Origin: Xanthomonas bonasiae
Lineage (GTDB): Bacteria > Pseudomonadota > Gammaproteobacteria > Xanthomonadales > Xanthomonadaceae
DNA length: 64,000 bases
Assembly (NCBI RefSeq): GCF_017163705.1
Contig: NZ_JAFIWB010000009.1
Span: 1-64,000, forward strand
Direction of reading: 5' to 3'
Shown in pieces: positions 34,759-42,012 of the stretch; the first letter of the stretch is position 1, and every line of letters starts with the position of its first letter. The notes beneath the pieces were generated by a model. It was not told where the DNA came from. It saw nothing but the letters and a program-made list of their open reading frames with translations, and searched no databases. A program made the translations under genes and the position numbers.

Positions 34759-35754
34759 TTACTGGAACGCTGCAAGCGCCTGGGTAAGCTGCCCGTTGTT
34801 GTTCACCGCGCCCTTGGTATAGCCCTGCCAGCCCGGATACGCATCGGGTTCCCAATAGAACACGCCCAGTCCATGCGCGCCGACCGCGCGGGTCTTGGCG
34901 ACCAGGTCGGCCAGCATCGCGCGGGTCGCCGCGTCCTGCTGCCAGTCCATGCCCACTTCGCTGACGATCACGTCCGCGCCGTAGCGCGCCACCATGTCGC
35001 GCATGTTGCTGGCGATCTGCGTGTTCGCGCTTTGCCAGCCGCTGCTCGAGGGGTAGTGCGACATCCCGACCACGTCCCACTTGCCGCCGGCGGACTTGAG
35101 GCCGTCGAAGAACCAGCGGAAGGTGGCGTTGTCGTAGCCGTTGGCCAGATGCACGACCACCTTGGCGTTGGGATAGACCGACTTGCTGGCGTTGTAGCCG
35201 CTGTTGATCAACTGCGCGAGATTGCCGAAGTTGGGGGTCTTGCCGTCCGGCCACAGCATGCCGCTGTTGATCTCGTTGCCGACCTGCACCCAGCTGACGT
35301 CGATGCCGTTGGATTTGAGATACGACAGGATGCCGCTGGTGTGCGCGTAGACGTCGGTGACCAGCTTGGAGAATGCATCGCCGCTCCACGCCGCGGGCTT
35401 GGTCTGCTGTCCGGGATCGGCCCAGCTGTCGCTGTAGTGGAAGTCGATCATGATCTGCATGCCCTGCGCCTTGGCCCGCTTGGCCATGTTCAGCACGTCG
35501 GCGCCGTCGCACCAGCCGTCCTTGGGATTGACCCAGACGCGCAGCCGGATTGCGTTGACGCCGGTGCCTTTCAGCAACGCGAAGAAGTCGGCGTTCGCGC
35601 CCGCGGCATTGCGGAACACGCGGCCGCTGCTCTCCTGCTGATCGATCCAGCTCACGTCCGCGCCCTTGGCGAAACTCTGCGCCGCCGCCGGTGCGCACAG
35701 ACAAGTCAGCAGCAGCGCCAGCCATGCGCACAAGCCCTTGCTCGATCCGTTCAT
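34759..35754 (-). CDS. arabinogalactan endo-beta-1,4-galactanase, GH53
   Basis: 331 aa. The start at 35754 has a good GAGGAA Shine-Dalgarno and yields a signal peptide (LCAPAAAQ). GH53 hallmarks are FAKGADVSWIDQQE, NAIRLRVWVNP, DFHYSDSWADPGQQ, the acid/base Glu in VQVGNEINSGMLWP and the nucleophile Glu in VSEVGMDW. It cuts beta-1,4-galactan side chains of pectin outside the cell. This fits a plant-associated life. No sugar transporter or other glycosidase is adjacent. Confidence 0.94.
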   Translation of the reverse strand: MNGSSKGLCAWLALLLTCLCAPAAAQSFAKGADVSWIDQQESSGRVFRNAAGANADFFALLKGTGVNAIRLRVWVNPKDGWCDGADVLNMAKRAKAQGMQIMIDFHYSDSWADPGQQTKPAAWSGDAFSKLVTDVYAHTSGILSYLKSNGIDVSWVQVGNEINSGMLWPDGKTPNFGNLAQLINSGYNASKSVYPNAKVVVHLANGYDNATFRWFFDGLKSAGGKWDVVGMSHYPSSSGWQSANTQIASNMRDMVARYGADVIVSEVGMDWQQDAATRAMLADLVAKTRAVGAHGLGVFYWEPDAYPGWQGYTKGAVNNNGQLTQALAAFQ

Positions 35755-35901
35755 AGGTTCCTCGCGATGATGGAGTGCCGGAAAAAACGCTGCCTGCGGC
35801 GCGGGCCGGGGCGTGCGCGAGGCTAGCGCGATCGCGCGCGCCACGCGCGTTGCAGCGCAGGGTGTCTACGCATGGCGACAGCGGCGCCTCGCGCGCGGCA
35901 C

Positions 35902-35929
35902 TTGACGCCTTCGCCCATTGGCGTAGCAT
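35902..35929 (+). promoter_or_regulatory. candidate sigma-70 promoter for the nadM operon
   Basis: TTGACG (35902-35907) and TAGCAT (35924-35929) with 16 bp spacing. This is among the best consensus matches seen in the window, and it predicts a leader of about 50 bases before nadM. Confidence 0.55.
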
Positions 35930-35985
35930 TTGCCGCACGCCAAGGGACAGACCCGTGGCGACTCCAATCACCGTGAGGGATGCTC

Positions 35986-37035
35986 ATGGAATACGACTAT
36001 CTTGTTTTCATCGGGCGCTTCGAGCCCTTCCACAACGGCCACGCCGCCGTTGCCCGCCACGCCCTGGCGCGTGCGCAGAAACTCATCTTCCTGATCGGCT
36101 CGGCCGAAACCCCGCGCACCATCCGCAATCCGTGGACGGTGGCCGAACGCAGCGTCATGATCCAGGCCGCGCTCGAGGGCGCCGCCGAGCGCCTGATCCT
36201 GCGCCCGCTGCGCGACCACCTGTACAACGAGAGCCAATGGATCGCCGCGGTGCAGTCGGCGGTGGCCGAGGCGGTGCGTGCCGATGGCGGCGGCAGCGAG
36301 GCGCGCATCGGCCTGGTCGGCATGGACAAGGACGCCAGCAGCTATTACCTGCGCGAATTCCCGCAGTGGCCGCTGGTCGACGTGCAGCACACCGAGACGC
36401 TGTCGGCGACCGAGCTGCGCCGCTACCTGTTCGAGGCCGGCAGCATCGATTTCCACGGCGCGCTGTTGATGCTGCGCGGCAACGTGCCGGCGCCGGTGTT
36501 CGACATGCTCGAGGCGTTCCGCAAGAACTCGCCGTCGTATGCGGAACTGCTCGCCGAATACCAGTTCATCGAGCAGTACCGCGCGGCCTGGAAGGAGGCG
36601 CCGTATCCGCCGACCTTCGTCACCGCCGATGCGGTGGTGGTGCATTCGGGCCACGTGCTGCTGGTGCGGCGCCGCGCGGCGCCGGGCAAGGGCCTGTGGG
36701 CGCTGCCGGGCGGCTTCGTCGGCCAGCACGAGAGCATCTTCGATGCCTGCCTGCGCGAACTGCGCGAGGAAACCCGGCTGAAGATCCCGGTGCCGGTACT
36801 GAAGGGCTCGCTGAAGAACCGCCATGTGTTCGACCATCCCGAGCGCAGCCTGCGCGGGCGCACCATCACCCATGCCTTCCACTTCGAATTCACCTTCGGC
36901 GAACTGCCCGAGGTGCGCGGCGGCGACGACGCCGACAAGGCGCGCTGGATTCCGGTCAGCGAAGTGCTGGGCATGGGCCCGAAACTGTTCGAAGACCACC
37001 TGCACCTGCTCGAATTCTTCCTGGGCCGCGGTTGA
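35986..37035 (+). CDS. nadM: bifunctional NMN adenylyltransferase / Nudix hydrolase
   Basis: 349 aa. The ATG at 35986 is preferred over the ATG at 35980 because the GTGAGG ribosome site is seven bases upstream of it. The N-terminal nucleotidyltransferase domain (about 1-180) carries GRFEPFHNGH, with SATELRRYL as the ISSTxxR-like motif. The C-terminal Nudix domain (about 200-340) has a complete box from GGFVGQHE to RELREETRL. NadM joins NMN and ATP to NAD; the Nudix half of known homologues cleaves ADP-ribose. It is the first gene of a four-gene operon with nadV, which supplies NMN. Confidence 0.95.
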   Translation: MEYDYLVFIGRFEPFHNGHAAVARHALARAQKLIFLIGSAETPRTIRNPWTVAERSVMIQAALEGAAERLILRPLRDHLYNESQWIAAVQSAVAEAVRADGGGSEARIGLVGMDKDASSYYLREFPQWPLVDVQHTETLSATELRRYLFEAGSIDFHGALLMLRGNVPAPVFDMLEAFRKNSPSYAELLAEYQFIEQYRAAWKEAPYPPTFVTADAVVVHSGHVLLVRRRAAPGKGLWALPGGFVGQHESIFDACLRELREETRLKIPVPVLKGSLKNRHVFDHPERSLRGRTITHAFHFEFTFGELPEVRGGDDADKARWIPVSEVLGMGPKLFEDHLHLLEFFLGRG

Positions 37036-37099
37036 CCGCGGCTTTCCCGGCCGGCGGACAGACCGCTGGCCTTCCCCCGACGCGAAGGAGCTTCCCGTC

Positions 37100-38524
37100 A
37101 TGCAATGCCTGAACAACCTGCTGCTCAACACCGACAGCTACAAGGCCAGCCACTGGCTGCAATATCCGGCCGGCACCGATGCCACGTTCTTCTATGTGGA
37201 ATCGCGCGGCGGCGTCTACGACCGCACCGTGTTCTTCGGTCTGCAGTCGATCCTCAAGGAGGCGCTGGGTCGCGCCATCACCCATGCCGACGTCGACGAG
37301 GCGCGCGACCTGTTCGCCGCGCACGGCGAGCCGTTCAACGAGGCCGGCTGGCGCGACATCGTCGATCGCCTCGGCGGGCAGTTGCCGATCCGCATCCGCG
37401 CCGTGCCCGAGGGCAGCGTGGTGCCGACCCACAACGCGCTGATGACCATCGAGTCCACCGACGCGCAGGCCTATTGGGTGCCGTCGTACCTGGAAACGCT
37501 GCTGCTGCGCATCTGGTATCCGGTCACCGTGGCCACGGTCAGCTGGCACGCCAAGCAGACCCTCCGCCAGTTCCTGGAACGCACCAGCGACGATCCGGAA
37601 GGGCAGTTGCCGTTCAAGCTGCACGACTTCGGCGCGCGCGGCGTGTCCAGCCTGGAGTCGGCGGCGATCGGCGGCGCCGCGCACCTGGTCAACTTCCTCG
37701 GCACCGATACCGTGTCCGGGCTGTTGCTGGCGCGCGCGCACTACCACGAGCCGATGGCCGGCTATTCGATCCCGGCCGCCGAGCACAGCACCATCACCAG
37801 TTGGGGCCGCGAGCGCGAAGTGGACGCGTACCGCAACATGCTCCGGCAGTTCGGCAAGCCCGGCGGCATCGTCGCGGTGGTGTCGGACAGCTACGACATC
37901 TTCCACGCGATCCGCGAACACTGGGGGACCACGCTGCGCGAAGAGGTGATCGCCTCCGGCGCCACCGTGGTGATCCGCCCCGATTCCGGCGACCCGGTCG
38001 CGGTGGTGCACCAGTGCCTGGAACTGCTCGACGAGGCCTTCGGCCACAGCGTCAACCGCAAGGGCTACAAGGTGCTCAACCACGTGCGCGTGATCCAGGG
38101 CGACGGGGTCAACCCGACCAGCATCCGCGCGATCCTGGAACGCGTCACCAGCGCCGGCTACGCCACCGACAACGTCGCCTTCGGCATGGGCGGCGCGCTG
38201 CTGCAGCGGCTGGATCGCGATACGCAGAAGTTCGCGCTGAAGTGCTCGGCCGCGCGCGTGGACGGTAAGTGGATCGACGTCTACAAGGACCCGATCACCG
38301 ACAAGGGCAAGCTCAGCAAGCGCGGCCGCATGAGCCTGCTGCGCCATCGCGAATACGGCGGCTACCGCACCGAACCGGTGCCGGCCACGGCCGCGTCGCT
38401 GGACGAACTGGCCCGGCCTGCCGGCTACGACGACGCGATGGTCACGGTGTGGGAAAACGGCCGCCTGCTGCACGACTGGAGCCTGGCGGAAGTGCGCGAG
38501 CGCGCGAACGCCGCGCGTCTGTAG
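37100..38524 (+). CDS. nadV: nicotinamide phosphoribosyltransferase
   Basis: 474 aa. The start at 37100 has GAAGGAG 11 bases before. NAMPT signatures are LLNTDSYKASHW, FKLHDFGARGVSS, AEHSTITSWG, VSDSYDIFHAI and VVIRPDSGDPV. It converts nicotinamide and PRPP to NMN, the rate-limiting salvage step, and NadM upstream makes NAD from it. Together they form a two-step route that avoids nicotinate and NAD synthetase. This route is patchy in bacteria and occurs in some phages, so transfer in the past is possible. The next gene starts 8 bp after the stop. Confidence 0.95.
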   Translation: MQCLNNLLLNTDSYKASHWLQYPAGTDATFFYVESRGGVYDRTVFFGLQSILKEALGRAITHADVDEARDLFAAHGEPFNEAGWRDIVDRLGGQLPIRIRAVPEGSVVPTHNALMTIESTDAQAYWVPSYLETLLLRIWYPVTVATVSWHAKQTLRQFLERTSDDPEGQLPFKLHDFGARGVSSLESAAIGGAAHLVNFLGTDTVSGLLLARAHYHEPMAGYSIPAAEHSTITSWGREREVDAYRNMLRQFGKPGGIVAVVSDSYDIFHAIREHWGTTLREEVIASGATVVIRPDSGDPVAVVHQCLELLDEAFGHSVNRKGYKVLNHVRVIQGDGVNPTSIRAILERVTSAGYATDNVAFGMGGALLQRLDRDTQKFALKCSAARVDGKWIDVYKDPITDKGKLSKRGRMSLLRHREYGGYRTEPVPATAASLDELARPAGYDDAMVTVWENGRLLHDWSLAEVRERANAARL

Positions 38525-38532
38525 GTGCCGGC

Positions 38533-39639
38533 ATGGACGCCAGCATGGAGTTCGCGCCGCCGCTGAGCGGCGCCTCGCCGCTGTTCGCCGCACTGCGCGC
38601 CGGCATGCCGCACCTGGAATGGCGGGTGCCGGCCGCCGCCGATGCCGCGCGCTGGCGGGTGCAGCGCATCGGCGGGCGCGACTACCGCGTTGCGCAGCCG
38701 GTCACCTTCACCCCGTACGCGTCGGTGCGGCCGTGTTCGGCACGTTGCCGCTTCTGTTCGGAAACGCTGCGCCCGCAGGTAGGCGGCACCGCCGCGGCCA
38801 GCCTGCGGCCGCCGCCGGACTATTTCGCGATGCTGCGGCAGGGAGTGGCGCAGCTGTCCGGGCTGCCGCTGTCGCACTCGCTGTCGGGGCTGGAGATGAC
38901 CGACGACGAAGCCTGGTTCCTGCAACTGCTGCAGACATTGGGCGAGGCCGAACGCGATGGGTTGCTGGTCGAGCAGCGCGTGCTGTACAGCAACGGCGCG
39001 GGTTTCGCTCGCAGCAAGGGCGATGCGTTGCTGGACGCGCTGCAACGCTTCGGGCTGTCGTGGGTGGAGCTGTCGCGGCACCATCCGCAGCAGGCCGGCA
39101 ACGACGCGATCATGCGCTTCCGCGACGGCGAGGCGATCGCCGATGCGCAGGTGTTCGTCGCCACCGCGCAACGCATCGCCGCCGCGCTGCCGCTGCGCCT
39201 GGTGTGCATCCTGCAGCACGGCGGCATCGCCGATGCCGACGGCGTTGCCGGCTACCTGCGCTGGGCACGCCAGTGCGGCGCGACCACGGTGATCTTCCGC
39301 GAGTTCTCGCGGCTCGGCGACGGCTACCGCACCGGCGGCACCCAGCGCTATCTGGCGCAGGCGCGGGTCGGCGTGGAGCAGGTCGTGGCCGCATGCATGG
39401 CCACGCCGTGGTGGCGCACGCTGCGGCCGCTGCAGATCACCGAGGGCTATTACTTCTGGAACCTGCGCATGGCCACCGCCGAGGGCATGGAGGTGGTGTT
39501 CGAGACCTCCGACTATGCCGCCATGCAGGCGCGCCACGACAGCGGCGACATCTACAAGCTGGTGTTCTTCGCCGACGGCCGGCTGTGCGCGGGCTGGCAG
39601 CCGGATCGCGATCTGCTGTGGCGGGCCGGCCATGGATAG
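38533..39639 (+). CDS. radical SAM enzyme of unassigned function
   Basis: 368 aa. The CxxxCxxC cluster motif is C68-SAR-C72-RF-C75, about 65 residues in, after an N-terminal region that reads AQPVTFTPYASVRP. Further features are SLSGLEMTDDEAWF, VLYSNGAGFA, the strand LVCILQHGGI and TTVIFREFSRLG, consistent with a partial TIM barrel. No auxiliary Cys cluster is visible; the remaining Cys residues are scattered. I do not recognise the subfamily. It is 8 bp after nadV and its last 8 bases overlap the next gene, so it is translationally tied to both. A role in modifying a nucleotide, nucleic acid or tRNA is possible but inferred. Confidence 0.75.
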   Translation: MDASMEFAPPLSGASPLFAALRAGMPHLEWRVPAAADAARWRVQRIGGRDYRVAQPVTFTPYASVRPCSARCRFCSETLRPQVGGTAAASLRPPPDYFAMLRQGVAQLSGLPLSHSLSGLEMTDDEAWFLQLLQTLGEAERDGLLVEQRVLYSNGAGFARSKGDALLDALQRFGLSWVELSRHHPQQAGNDAIMRFRDGEAIADAQVFVATAQRIAAALPLRLVCILQHGGIADADGVAGYLRWARQCGATTVIFREFSRLGDGYRTGGTQRYLAQARVGVEQVVAACMATPWWRTLRPLQITEGYYFWNLRMATAEGMEVVFETSDYAAMQARHDSGDIYKLVFFADGRLCAGWQPDRDLLWRAGHG

Positions 39640-40696
39640 CCGTAGCTGGTGGACGCCGCCGCCGGATCCGCCCGAACACCGGCTGCCCGAGGACCTGCGC
39701 CGGCGCGATCCGCTGGGCGCGCGCGACTGCGGCTGGGTCAGCCAGATGCGTCCGTTCGTGCGCCAGTTCAGCGCGCCAGACGCCTGCGTGCTGGATCCGT
39801 TCTGCGGCTTCGGCAGCACCTTGCTCGCCGCCGAACTGGAGGGCCGGCGCGGACTGGGGCTGGAGATCGACGCGGGGCGCGCGGCGCTGGCCCGTGAACG
39901 CCTGCAGCGGCTCGGGCTGCGCGCCGAGGTCCGGGCTGGCGCGCTGCCGCAGCTCACGCTGGAGGAGCCGATCGACCTGTGCCTGACCAACGTGCCGTAT
40001 TTCGGTTGCGACTGGCCGGGCGCGACGGCACCGGGCCAGCTGTATGCCAGCCCCGACTACGCGGCTTACCTGGGCGGGCTGCGCGCGGTGTTCCATGCGG
40101 TGCGCCGCGCCTTGCGCGACGACGGCTTCTGCATCGCAATGGTCGAGAACGTGGAGGTCGGCGGCGTGTGCGTGCCGCAGGCCTGGGACCTGGCGCGGGT
40201 GCTGGGCAGCCTGTTCGTGCCCTGTGCCGAACGGGTGCTGTGCTATCCGCGCGAGAGCGTGCAGCCGCTGGCGCCCGGCGATACGCGCAGCGACCGCAGC
40301 CATGAGTACGCATTGGTCTTCCAGAAGCGGCGCGAACCGATCGACCTGCCGGGCAGCGCCCAGCTGCTGGCCGCGTTGCGCGCGGACGGGTTCGATTACG
40401 CCGTGCACGGCAGCTATCCGCTCTGGCTCGCCGATCCGGGCACGGCCGTGCGCCCGCCCGGCGATGTGGACCTGTTGCTGCCGCGCGACCTCGGCCAGCT
40501 GCAACGGCTGCTGGACTGGCTGCGCGCGCGCGGCTTCGCGCTCAGCCTGTGGGGCGAGCCGCTGGCGGCGCCGCCGACGCTGGCGTTGCTCGACGCCTAC
40601 CACTACCTGCGCGCCGAACGCCGCGACCGCGGCGGCGGCCTGTTGCGGGTGGACCTGTCGCTGCAGCCGGTGCCTGGCTCGCTAACCGCGGGATGA
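39632..40696 (+). CDS. amino-methyltransferase-like protein fused to a nucleotidyltransferase-like domain
   Basis: 354 aa, two parts. Residues 1-235 look like a class I SAM-dependent N-methyltransferase: DPFCGFGST (55-63) as the SAM motif, LGLEID (75-80), a catalytic-type motif N120-V-P-Y-F in place of the usual N/D/S-PP-Y/F, and HEYALVFQK (224-232) as in many DNA N4/N6 methylases. Residues 236-354 resemble a minimal nucleotidyltransferase: H259-G-S261 and D278-V-D280 (PPGDVDLLLP), followed by LRARGFAL and DAYHYLRAE. I do not know this fusion. It could act on DNA, RNA or a small molecule. It is the last gene of the nadM-nadV-radical SAM operon. Confidence 0.7.
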   Translation: MDSRSWWTPPPDPPEHRLPEDLRRRDPLGARDCGWVSQMRPFVRQFSAPDACVLDPFCGFGSTLLAAELEGRRGLGLEIDAGRAALARERLQRLGLRAEVRAGALPQLTLEEPIDLCLTNVPYFGCDWPGATAPGQLYASPDYAAYLGGLRAVFHAVRRALRDDGFCIAMVENVEVGGVCVPQAWDLARVLGSLFVPCAERVLCYPRESVQPLAPGDTRSDRSHEYALVFQKRREPIDLPGSAQLLAALRADGFDYAVHGSYPLWLADPGTAVRPPGDVDLLLPRDLGQLQRLLDWLRARGFALSLWGEPLAAPPTLALLDAYHYLRAERRDRGGGLLRVDLSLQPVPGSLTAG

Positions 40697-40774
40697 GCGC
40701 TGGCGGCGGCATCAAGGCCGCCTCGACACGCTTGCGGCTATCCTTGGCCGGTTCCTTCCTTTCGGTCCACGGCC

Positions 40775-41500
40775 ATGTCCGCTTCGTCCAACGTCCTCGC
40801 CTTTCCTGCGCTCGTGCTGGTCGCGATCGGCCTGAGCGGCTGCTTCGCCCGCAAGCAGGACAACTTGGTGAAGGAGACCTTCAACTCCGACAACACCTAT
40901 TCGCGCAGCTATCCGGTACAGCCGGGCCAGGCCTGCGAATCGGCGCGGCGCGCGCTGCTGAGCCAGGGCTACGTGGTCGCCAAGGCCACCGCCGATGCGG
41001 TCGAAGGCACCAAGAACTTCCAGCCCAACCAGGAGTCGCACGAGCAACTGGAGCTGCGCGTGTCGTGCGTGGCGCACGGCGCGGACGAGTCCTGGGTGTT
41101 CGTCAGCGCGCTGCAGGACCGCTATGCGCTGAAGAAGAGCGCGACCTCGGCCAGCGTCGGCGTCGGCGTGCTCGGCTCGGTGTCGCTGCCGGTCGGCAGC
41201 AGCGACGACTCGCTGGTGCGCGTGGCCAGCAGTACGGTGCAGGACAGCGATTTCTACAAGCGCTTCTTCGAACTCATGGCGCAGTACCTGCCGAAGGCCA
41301 AGCCGGCCGCGCCGCCGGAGCCGCCGCCGGCGGCAGCGCCCAAGCCCGAGCCGGCCGCTGCGGTACCGGCGCCGACGCCGGCAGCAGTGTCGCCGGCACC
41401 TGCACCTGCACCTGCAGCAGTGCCAGCGACGCCGGTGGCGGAAGCTACGCCCGCGCCCGCTGCCGCGCCCGCGGTCAGCGACGGCACCACGCCGCGCTGA
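40775..41500 (+). CDS. DUF2242-family lipoprotein
   Basis: 241 aa. Lipobox LSGC (Cys about 23) follows a hydrophobic signal. The DUF2242 region (about 35-170) includes ACESARRALLSQGYVV, FQPNQESHEQLELRVSC and RYALKKSATSASVGVGVLGS. The final 70 residues are a Pro/Ala-rich tail, likely disordered in the periplasm or at the peptidoglycan. Function unknown. It starts 78 bp after the preceding operon and probably has its own promoter. Confidence 0.82.
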   Translation: MSASSNVLAFPALVLVAIGLSGCFARKQDNLVKETFNSDNTYSRSYPVQPGQACESARRALLSQGYVVAKATADAVEGTKNFQPNQESHEQLELRVSCVAHGADESWVFVSALQDRYALKKSATSASVGVGVLGSVSLPVGSSDDSLVRVASSTVQDSDFYKRFFELMAQYLPKAKPAAPPEPPPAAAPKPEPAAAVPAPTPAAVSPAPAPAPAAVPATPVAEATPAPAAAPAVSDGTTPR

Positions 41501-41643
41501 GGCATGCGTTCATCCGCGGCTGCGGAAGCTGAATAGAGGGCATTTCGCTTCACGATCCATTCGCAATCGCGGTGCAAAGGTGGCCCCGTCGGGAGTGCGA
41601 TGCCTGCAACAGGCATCGGCTCCGCCACCCAGGAGCAACCAGC

Positions 41644-42012
41644 ATGAACACTTTCAAATCCGCCGTGTGTCTGAGCATCCTCGCGATCGCCACTGCTGCC
41701 GCGCCGTTGGCGCAGGCGCAGCGCCATTACGGGCCGGAAGACGCCGGACGCCGCTTCAACGACGGCACCCGCGTGCACTGCAAGAAGGTCGCGGTGCAGA
41801 AGAACAACACCGATCCGAACCGCATCGGCGGCACCGTGGCCGGCGCGGCGATCGGCGGCCTGCTCGGCAACCAGATCGGCAAGGGCGACGGCAAGAAGTT
41901 GGCCACGGTCGGTGGCGCGGTCGCCGGCGGCGCCACCGGTCGCTACATCCAGGGCCAGCGCCAGCAGGCCAACGGCAACCGCCGTGTCGAGACCGTCTGC
42001 AAGCGCTACTGA
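41644..42012 (+). CDS. glycine-zipper 2TM domain envelope protein
   Basis: 122 aa. The start at 41644 follows AGGAGCAACC. Signal peptide (APLAQAQ) and a glycine zipper (about 62-102, GGTVAGAAIGGLLGNQIGKGDGKK and GGAVAGGATGRYIQG). Proteins with this Rick_17kDa/YcfJ-like domain sit in the outer membrane and may insert or stabilise there. The stop is followed by a rho-independent terminator, so it is monocistronic. Function not known in detail. Confidence 0.88.
   Translation: MNTFKSAVCLSILAIATAAAPLAQAQRHYGPEDAGRRFNDGTRVHCKKVAVQKNNTDPNRIGGTVAGAAIGGLLGNQIGKGDGKKLATVGGAVAGGATGRYIQGQRQQANGNRRVETVCKRY

Follow-up and report, generated by a model that had tools for sequence, protein, structure and literature searches.

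The nadM-nadV locus and its features

The window analysed here is a 64,000-nucleotide stretch of Xanthomonas bonasiae DNA (contig NZ_JAFIWB010000009.1, positions 1 to 64,000), and our subject is a block of four open reading frames (ORFs) within it, all on the + strand. They encode nadM-Nudix (gene A), nadV (gene B), a divergent radical S-adenosylmethionine (SAM) protein (gene C) and a fused methyltransferase-like and nucleotidyltransferase-like protein (gene D). Both nadM and nadV are preceded by a structured RNA leader, and the C-D pair is tied to nicotinamide adenine dinucleotide (NAD) salvage by its distribution, with its chemistry a proposal. With evenly balanced confidence, we read the block as a NAD-salvage operon with RNA control of its own and an accessory enzyme pair. 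Its features are as follows.

35902..35929, + strand: promoter (TTGACG, 16 nt, TAGCAT), from a consensus scan; hexamers identical in 14/14 aligned genus regions
35938..35989, + strand: leader RNA 1 before nadM; alignment A4, pair counts, fold and model match (E 6e-18)
35938-35960, + strand: hairpin P1 of leader 1, loop 35947-35951; alignment A4 and fold
35971-35989, + strand: hairpin P2 of leader 1, covering the ribosome-binding site and start codon; alignment A4 and fold
35986..37035, + strand: nadM-Nudix (gene A); NF003788, 713 bits against a cut-off of 354
37051..37099, + strand: leader RNA 2 before nadV; model R1 match at 37039-37100 (E 3e-5) and covariation of its own
37051-37069 and ~37079-37099, + strand: hairpins P1 and P2 of leader 2, P2 lying over the ribosome-binding site
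37100..38524, + strand: nadV, nicotinamide phosphoribosyltransferase (gene B); PF18127 and PF04095 above cut-off
38533..39639, + strand: divergent radical SAM protein (gene C); CxxxCxxC in 12/12 relatives, PqqE profile match (E 8e-4)
39632..40696, + strand: gene D, with an amino-methyltransferase-like half (~39632-40333) and a nucleotidyltransferase-like half (~40334-40693); PF01555 (E 5e-13), weak PF14907, and D278, D280 and D341 in 11/11

The layout bears out the operon described in an earlier note on this DNA, which placed four genes on one strand with the last three 8 bp apart or overlapping: 64 bp separate nadM from nadV and 8 bp separate nadV from C, while C and D overlap by 8 bp. The nadM ORF is listed from 35980, yet we place its start at 35986, in keeping with the position of the ribosome-binding site GAGGGA (35975-35980). 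The single promoter claimed before the operon also stands, as the sole promoter-like site within 35000-42000 (shuffled sequences give a mean of 0.4), with hexamers unchanged in every aligned genus upstream region, window included; the structured leaders of nadM and nadV had been overlooked.

Genes A and B match curated family models above cut-off, in agreement with their proposed role as the pair that makes nicotinamide mononucleotide (NMN) and NAD. Gene A matches NF003788, the bifunctional NMN adenylyltransferase/Nudix model, over its full length (residues 1-349, E 5e-215). Gene B matches PF18127 NAMPT_N (E 1.4e-29, 102.7 bits) and the NAPRTase domain (213.9 bits), and also NCBIfam NF006629 (E 9e-207, above cut-off), a model named nicotinate phosphoribosyltransferase. 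From these family assignments, the two genes almost certainly have ordinary nicotinamide-to-NAD salvage functions, in which NadV would convert nicotinamide to NMN and NadM-Nudix would convert NMN to NAD. The same pathway, NadM-Nudix/NadV nicotinamide salvage, is reported to be functional in X. campestris (PMC10907753). The main text of that paper differs from the present account in lacking the words operon, radical and Nudix, and it probably does not deal with C-D or the leaders.

Structured RNA leaders of nadM and nadV

Conservation of the aligned upstream regions extends beyond the promoter. One regular expression gave single matches in 75 loci, which form the basis of the nadM-leader alignment; after identical and near-identical copies were dropped and the variant L155 was added, the resulting alignment (A4) holds 54 sequences. 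The loop of hairpin P1 is conserved as AYAGA, although most of the loop, the stem top and GAGGGA were prescribed by the regular expression, so that their invariance is partly a selection effect. Seven of the nine P1 pairs show changes on both sides. The GG of P1 is paired with CC in 54/54 and 53/54 sequences, and the next AGA is also conserved. Counted over the whole structure, 88 cells are doubly changed, where shuffles average 32.3 (standard deviation 4.7). The covariation score of 0.229 exceeds its control (0.090); none of 500 shuffles equals it, and slid versions stay at or below 0.066. Leader 1 of the window folds at -23.4 kcal/mol (z -3.0; 2/200 shuffles equally good). Among the minimum-energy folds of A4, P1 forms in 52/54, and all 54 have at least half of the ribosome-binding site paired; the mean z is -2.46, and 35 of the 54 lie below -2.

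The nadV copies were kept out of the A4-based model, which was run on 60 genomes at a threshold of E <= 1e-3. It returned 41 matches (22 before nadM, 18 before nadV and one in G050), so that 40 of the 41 are located before one of the two genes, supporting a NAD-regulon leader. Many of the nadM matches come from genomes that fed the model or from their close relatives; those in G037 and G057, where the leader also precedes nadM, are independent of it and bring the families with the leader to three. G057 has a second leader copy (E 6e-4) between nadM and a Band-7 gene (L185 2703-4739), and the protein after the Band-7 gene has similarity to NAD kinase below cut-off (E 8.5e-5). In the nadV leader, P2 differs from that of nadM, with GAAG-GAG-CTTC inside GACG...CGTC. 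Its alignment, A5, comprises 36 of 37 sequences, L158 having been dropped because its match lacks the hairpin. It scores 0.172 for covariation against 0.103 (0/500 shuffles), with 8 doubly changed cells against 1.3, and P1 forms in 35/36 folds (mean z -1.95). Both leaders are thus conserved structured RNAs whose compensatory changes exceed controls.

Within family f12, of the same order, 20 loci reaching to ~2 kb upstream of nadV were compared. Nine contain nadM, and all nine have the nadM leader; eight of these leaders were used in the model and one, L148, was not. The 11 loci without nadM show no leader upstream of nadV, nadM elsewhere in those genomes not having been sought. The leader of L137 was missed by the regular expression and found by the model. 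Two nadV-only loci of the family have no leader, save for a weak 0.08 match in L100. Weak matches in G050, G000:C33 and G007 were rejected, as none is followed by a plausible gene start. A 50.8-kb IMG/VR contig (L189 7792-10377), of ambiguous viral or host origin, carries nadM-nadV with both leaders.

The scans of Rfam 15 covered nadM leaders: the window leader gave eight matches (E 1.8-9.8), all below the gathering threshold and none on the same strand over the leader, and 20 further nadM leaders gave nothing at E <= 1. Neither the NAD+-I nor the NAD+-II riboswitch family produced a credible match to these leaders. The NAD+-II riboswitch (pnuC motif), proposed to engage the ribosome-binding site in a pseudoknot and almost exclusively tied to pnuC (PMC7749635), resembles the present element as an RNA leader of a NAD-related gene acting on the ribosome-binding site; the Xanthomonas-type leader differs in consisting of two hairpins before nadM or nadV, as well as in its Rfam result. 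The NAD+-I riboswitch (nadA motif), confined to Acidobacteria (PMC7749635), is built from tandem bulged stem-loops with a ACANCCCC bulge (PMC7297122). It shares RNA control of NAD metabolism and two similar domains with our element, whereas the window leader shows, by eye, no ACANCCCC bulge. As described in these sources, the known NAD riboswitches differ from the leader in both architecture and range (PMC7749635, PMC7297122, PMC10085692).

Distribution and decay of the C-D pair

The main survey covers 247 Xanthomonadaceae genomes in a single sample. Of these, 71 have nadV and 60 have nadM, or 58 at full length once the fragments in G001 and G002 are set aside; C is present in 36, or 34 near-full without the remnant in G010 and the pieces in G211 (the copy in G009, with one in-frame stop, is counted among the 34). 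The linkage of C-D to the NAD genes proposed in the earlier note, which turned on whether relatives mostly carry C-D without nadV or nadM, survives in this sample. All 34 genomes with near-full C also possess full nadM and nadV, and in 33 of them C lies on the same strand within ~270 bp after nadV; the exception, G179, has it on another contig. Near-full C is absent from all 13 genomes in which nadV occurs without a full nadM. The nesting of C in full nadM among the 71 nadV genomes gives a Fisher p of 8e-5, and at genus level C occurs in 6/18 nadV genera against 0/36 (p 7e-4), neither value being corrected for the tree. The A-B-C-D order is maintained across six genera while flanking genes vary, and the distances computed for the four genes in 22 loci show correlations of 0.91-0.96, as expected if they were inherited together as a block.

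Outside the family, C is rare in the genomes sampled. In f12, the two genomes with C (2/147) belong to genus g28 and are among the 36/147 that have nadV; this agreement carries little weight, as nadV is that frequent (a quarter of f12) and is present in every one of the seven listed g28 genomes. C and nadV lie inside separate contigs in G046, and on separate contigs in G705, where C stands at a contig start and linkage cannot be judged. Wider samples, counted with overlapping genomes, have C in 3/369 (class) and 2/398 (phylum), of which only G046 and a weak match in G575 are new. The two genomes with unlinked C-D, G179 and G046, nonetheless possess nadM and nadV.

Among 20 genomes of the genus, C is present over its length in 15 (including G009 with its stop) and absent as such from five. 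G017 retains nadM-nadV with C reduced to scraps, and G016 has full nadM with C unmatched. In G010, nadM and D are gone and scraps of C surround an intact nadV, while G001 and G002 have truncated nadM with C unmatched, alongside scraps of D in the former and no D match in the latter. nadM and C-D are therefore damaged together in three of the five. Both C and D are in pieces in X. populi. Because C-D decays in several genomes where nadV persists, the pair is accessory. In all 13 same-genus comparisons with the window, nadV has a ratio of nonsynonymous to synonymous substitution (dN/dS) of 0.06-0.15. The corresponding values are 0.14-0.31 for C and, within D, 0.14-0.32 for the methyltransferase half and 0.19-0.40 for the other half; intact copies of C and D evolve under purifying selection.

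Gene C, a divergent radical SAM protein, and the two-domain gene D

Gene C carries the radical SAM cluster motif, and its CxxxCxxC cysteines are invariant in 12/12 aligned proteins (L027, with an in-frame stop, was excluded). The gene C profile is similar to PqqE, and similarity to MoaA is reached via a phage relative. While the motif and the PqqE similarity liken C to MoaA/PqqE-like enzymes, it falls below every family cut-off and has motifs of its own, SRHH and GYYFWN. Single-sequence searches of Pfam, NCBIfam, PADLOC, PHROGs and PDB gave no match. The radical SAM family PF04055 is matched neither by the window protein nor by a 37.7% identical relative on the Hymenobacter swuensis plasmid pHsw1; the phage relative, 25% identical to C, matches it at E 6e-8. 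The pHsw1 gene overlaps a stand-alone nucleotidyltransferase-like gene whose product matches the C-terminal domain of D from several Xanthomonadaceae (E down to 2e-10), and the neighbours listed around it, from a possibly incomplete gene table, include no annotated methyltransferase or nadV. Dulem virus 40 (L022 7138-9291) has two adjoining radical SAM genes, one of them a distant relative of C, and a GNAT gene. Remoter radical SAM proteins of an Embleya plasmid and of G575 (L090 6132-8361 and L025 7230-9607) share the SRHH motif and are each followed by an aminotransferase-like gene; we judged them to be a different subfamily. Two further candidates were set aside. A ribosomally synthesized and post-translationally modified peptide (RiPP) enzyme would need a precursor, for which the 8-bp nadV-C gap, the one place where it was sought, is too small, and no viperin model matches C itself.

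Gene D matches PF01555 above cut-off, with the profile matched partially and in two stretches, the best of which covers profile positions 171-219 of 221 at residues 39-87. In the DNA N4/N6 methyltransferase class of PF01555, motif IV lies ahead of motif I. In D, DPFCGFG at 55 (motif I) stands before VPYF at 121 (motif IV), so that D shows neither a one-pass profile match nor the motif order of a PF01555 DNA methylase. At its C-terminus, G260, S261, D278, D280 and D341 are invariant in 11/11 proteins (GS, DxD and a third D). Of five D tail pieces scanned, three are unmatched and two have matches that fall below cut-off, one to PF14907 (E 0.019) and the other to PF10620 (E 0.005); the D tail has weak similarity to NTP_transf_5. 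On a Streptomyces plasmid (L024 4023-8660), a relative of the methyltransferase half stands alone at ~40% identity, behind ORFs that we take to resemble ATP-grasp and transporter genes, and the region is perhaps a biosynthetic cluster. Because the partners of C and D relatives change between loci, small-molecule chemistry is suggested for the pair over a single nucleic-acid target.

The altemicidin pathway offers a precedent for NAD as a natural-product building block that, with SAM, yields a metabolite (PMC11610977); as described there, it differs in using a pyridoxal phosphate (PLP)-dependent enzyme, none of which is seen in the four-gene block. In the open-access PMC literature, with subscription papers outside its scope, we recognised nothing as the C-D enzyme pair or the leader.

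Probable RNA control of NAD salvage and a candidate pathway for C-D

A covarying hairpin with a conserved loop and a second hairpin over the ribosome-binding site, placed before two NAD genes and in one genome also before a third operon, most plausibly serve to control NAD metabolism at translation, and the leader is very probably a real regulatory RNA. Hairpin 1 and the linker would form the sensing part; a NAD-type ligand or a protein on hairpin 1 would alter how easily hairpin 2 opens, and translation of nadM and nadV would thereby track NAD status. Direct sensing of a NAD-type ligand, possibly as a third NAD-type riboswitch class, has a little short of an even chance. Instead, a protein, be it RsmA/CsrA or a self-regulating NAD enzyme, could repress translation by gripping both hairpins, and we regard this as a serious if less favoured possibility. 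The RNA is small (~50 nt) with few conserved unpaired bases, and GGA occurs at hairpin 1 and, close to the loop, in the ribosome-binding-site hairpin, at a spacing that suits two CsrA-type sites. The CsrA consensus presents GGA in a hairpin loop, whereas the GG of hairpin 1 is consistently paired and followed by a conserved AGA. Moreover, the concentration of matches at two NAD genes is unlike a global regulator, which would be expected at many sites, though differently shaped ones would escape the model.

For C-D, a small-molecule pathway is a balanced proposition. C would initiate a radical reaction on a small nucleotide-type metabolite, the nucleotidyltransferase domain of D (whose counterpart also partners C in Hymenobacter) would move a nucleotide to or from it, and the methyltransferase domain would N-methylate it. 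The substrate may derive from, or depend on, the NMN/NAD pool, and a direct origin in NMN or NAD is a tentative idea that we hold to be rather unlikely. C-D may also have no functional tie to NAD, having been inserted once behind nadV, co-inherited and now being lost. The unlinked pairs in G179 and G046, the frequent loss of C-D and the few sampled matches outside Xanthomonadaceae, which imply few independent events, favour this account; we nevertheless consider it doubtful, since those unlinked pairs also reside in genomes with nadM and nadV, near-full C is missing from all 13 nadV genomes without a full nadM, and gene order is kept while flanks differ. That C-D modifies nucleic acid, as the earlier note proposed, or serves defence with the NAD genes as mere neighbours, draws on the PF01555 match, on PADLOC hits of D to generic type II methyltransferase models and one mad2 model, and on the patchy presence and repeated decay that are usual among defence genes. 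The partial PF01555 match and different motif order, the lack of any PADLOC match for C, the Hymenobacter partner with no methyltransferase annotated beside it and the co-occurrence of C with full nadM and nadV make it improbable. The earlier note also raised a host-phage NAD conflict, in which salvage would restore NAD and C-D would strike the attacker or NAD derivatives. Phages do carry nadV and nadM (PMC9503650), and the IMG/VR contig holds nadM-nadV with both leaders, albeit possibly as host DNA. Among 50,697 phage records, C has one relative (24.5% identity) and D none, a search of IMG/VR with C found no relative, and the leader and nadM-nadV occur in genomes without C-D. The phage and PADLOC results lower the likelihood of both ideas, and the NAD conflict is very remote.

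Returning to the NAD-salvage operon with RNA control and an accessory pair, several observations weigh against it. Five covariation measures were used on A4, and one does not go beyond its control: pairs with double changes number 7 against 5.4, equalled by 46/500 shuffles, and two slid versions reach 8. The RNAalifold covariation term of A4 is small (-0.79 of -16.94), and P2, which encloses GAGGGA and AUG, has no compensatory change. At L151, where the nadM leader is present, neither the regular expression nor the model finds a nadV leader, and no third leader was found before C. The nadV-C gap between match ends spans 11 to 262 nt across loci; given this range, co-transcription is plausible for this genus and unproved for others. 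Near-full C is missing from 24 of the 58 nadM-nadV genomes of the sample, so salvage does not require C-D, and G016 and G017, with full nadM and no intact C, argue against strict coupling. Linkage is not obligatory either, as seen in G179, where C-D lies on a different contig from nadM-nadV, in G046, and in Hymenobacter, with no annotated nadV nearby. The co-occurrence statistics disregard phylogeny, and the nucleotidyltransferase label of the D tail is weak, being drawn from low-scoring matches and motifs.

In the most far-reaching form of this interpretation, which we consider unlikely as a whole, the leaders would be a third NAD-type riboswitch class serving a NAD regulon of Xanthomonadales, and C-D would make a new methylated, nucleotidylated metabolite derived from pyridine nucleotides. 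The regulon would then comprise nadM, nadV and, in one genome, the Band-7/NAD-kinase-like pair. NAD is a universal coenzyme, yet two riboswitch classes have been named for it, one limited to Acidobacteria and the other tied to pnuC (PMC7749635). A small covarying leader before two successive salvage genes could reveal whether these bacteria sense a NAD-type compound by RNA, and the presence of C-D, which tracks complete nadM-nadV salvage, points to an uncharacterised metabolite or cofactor.

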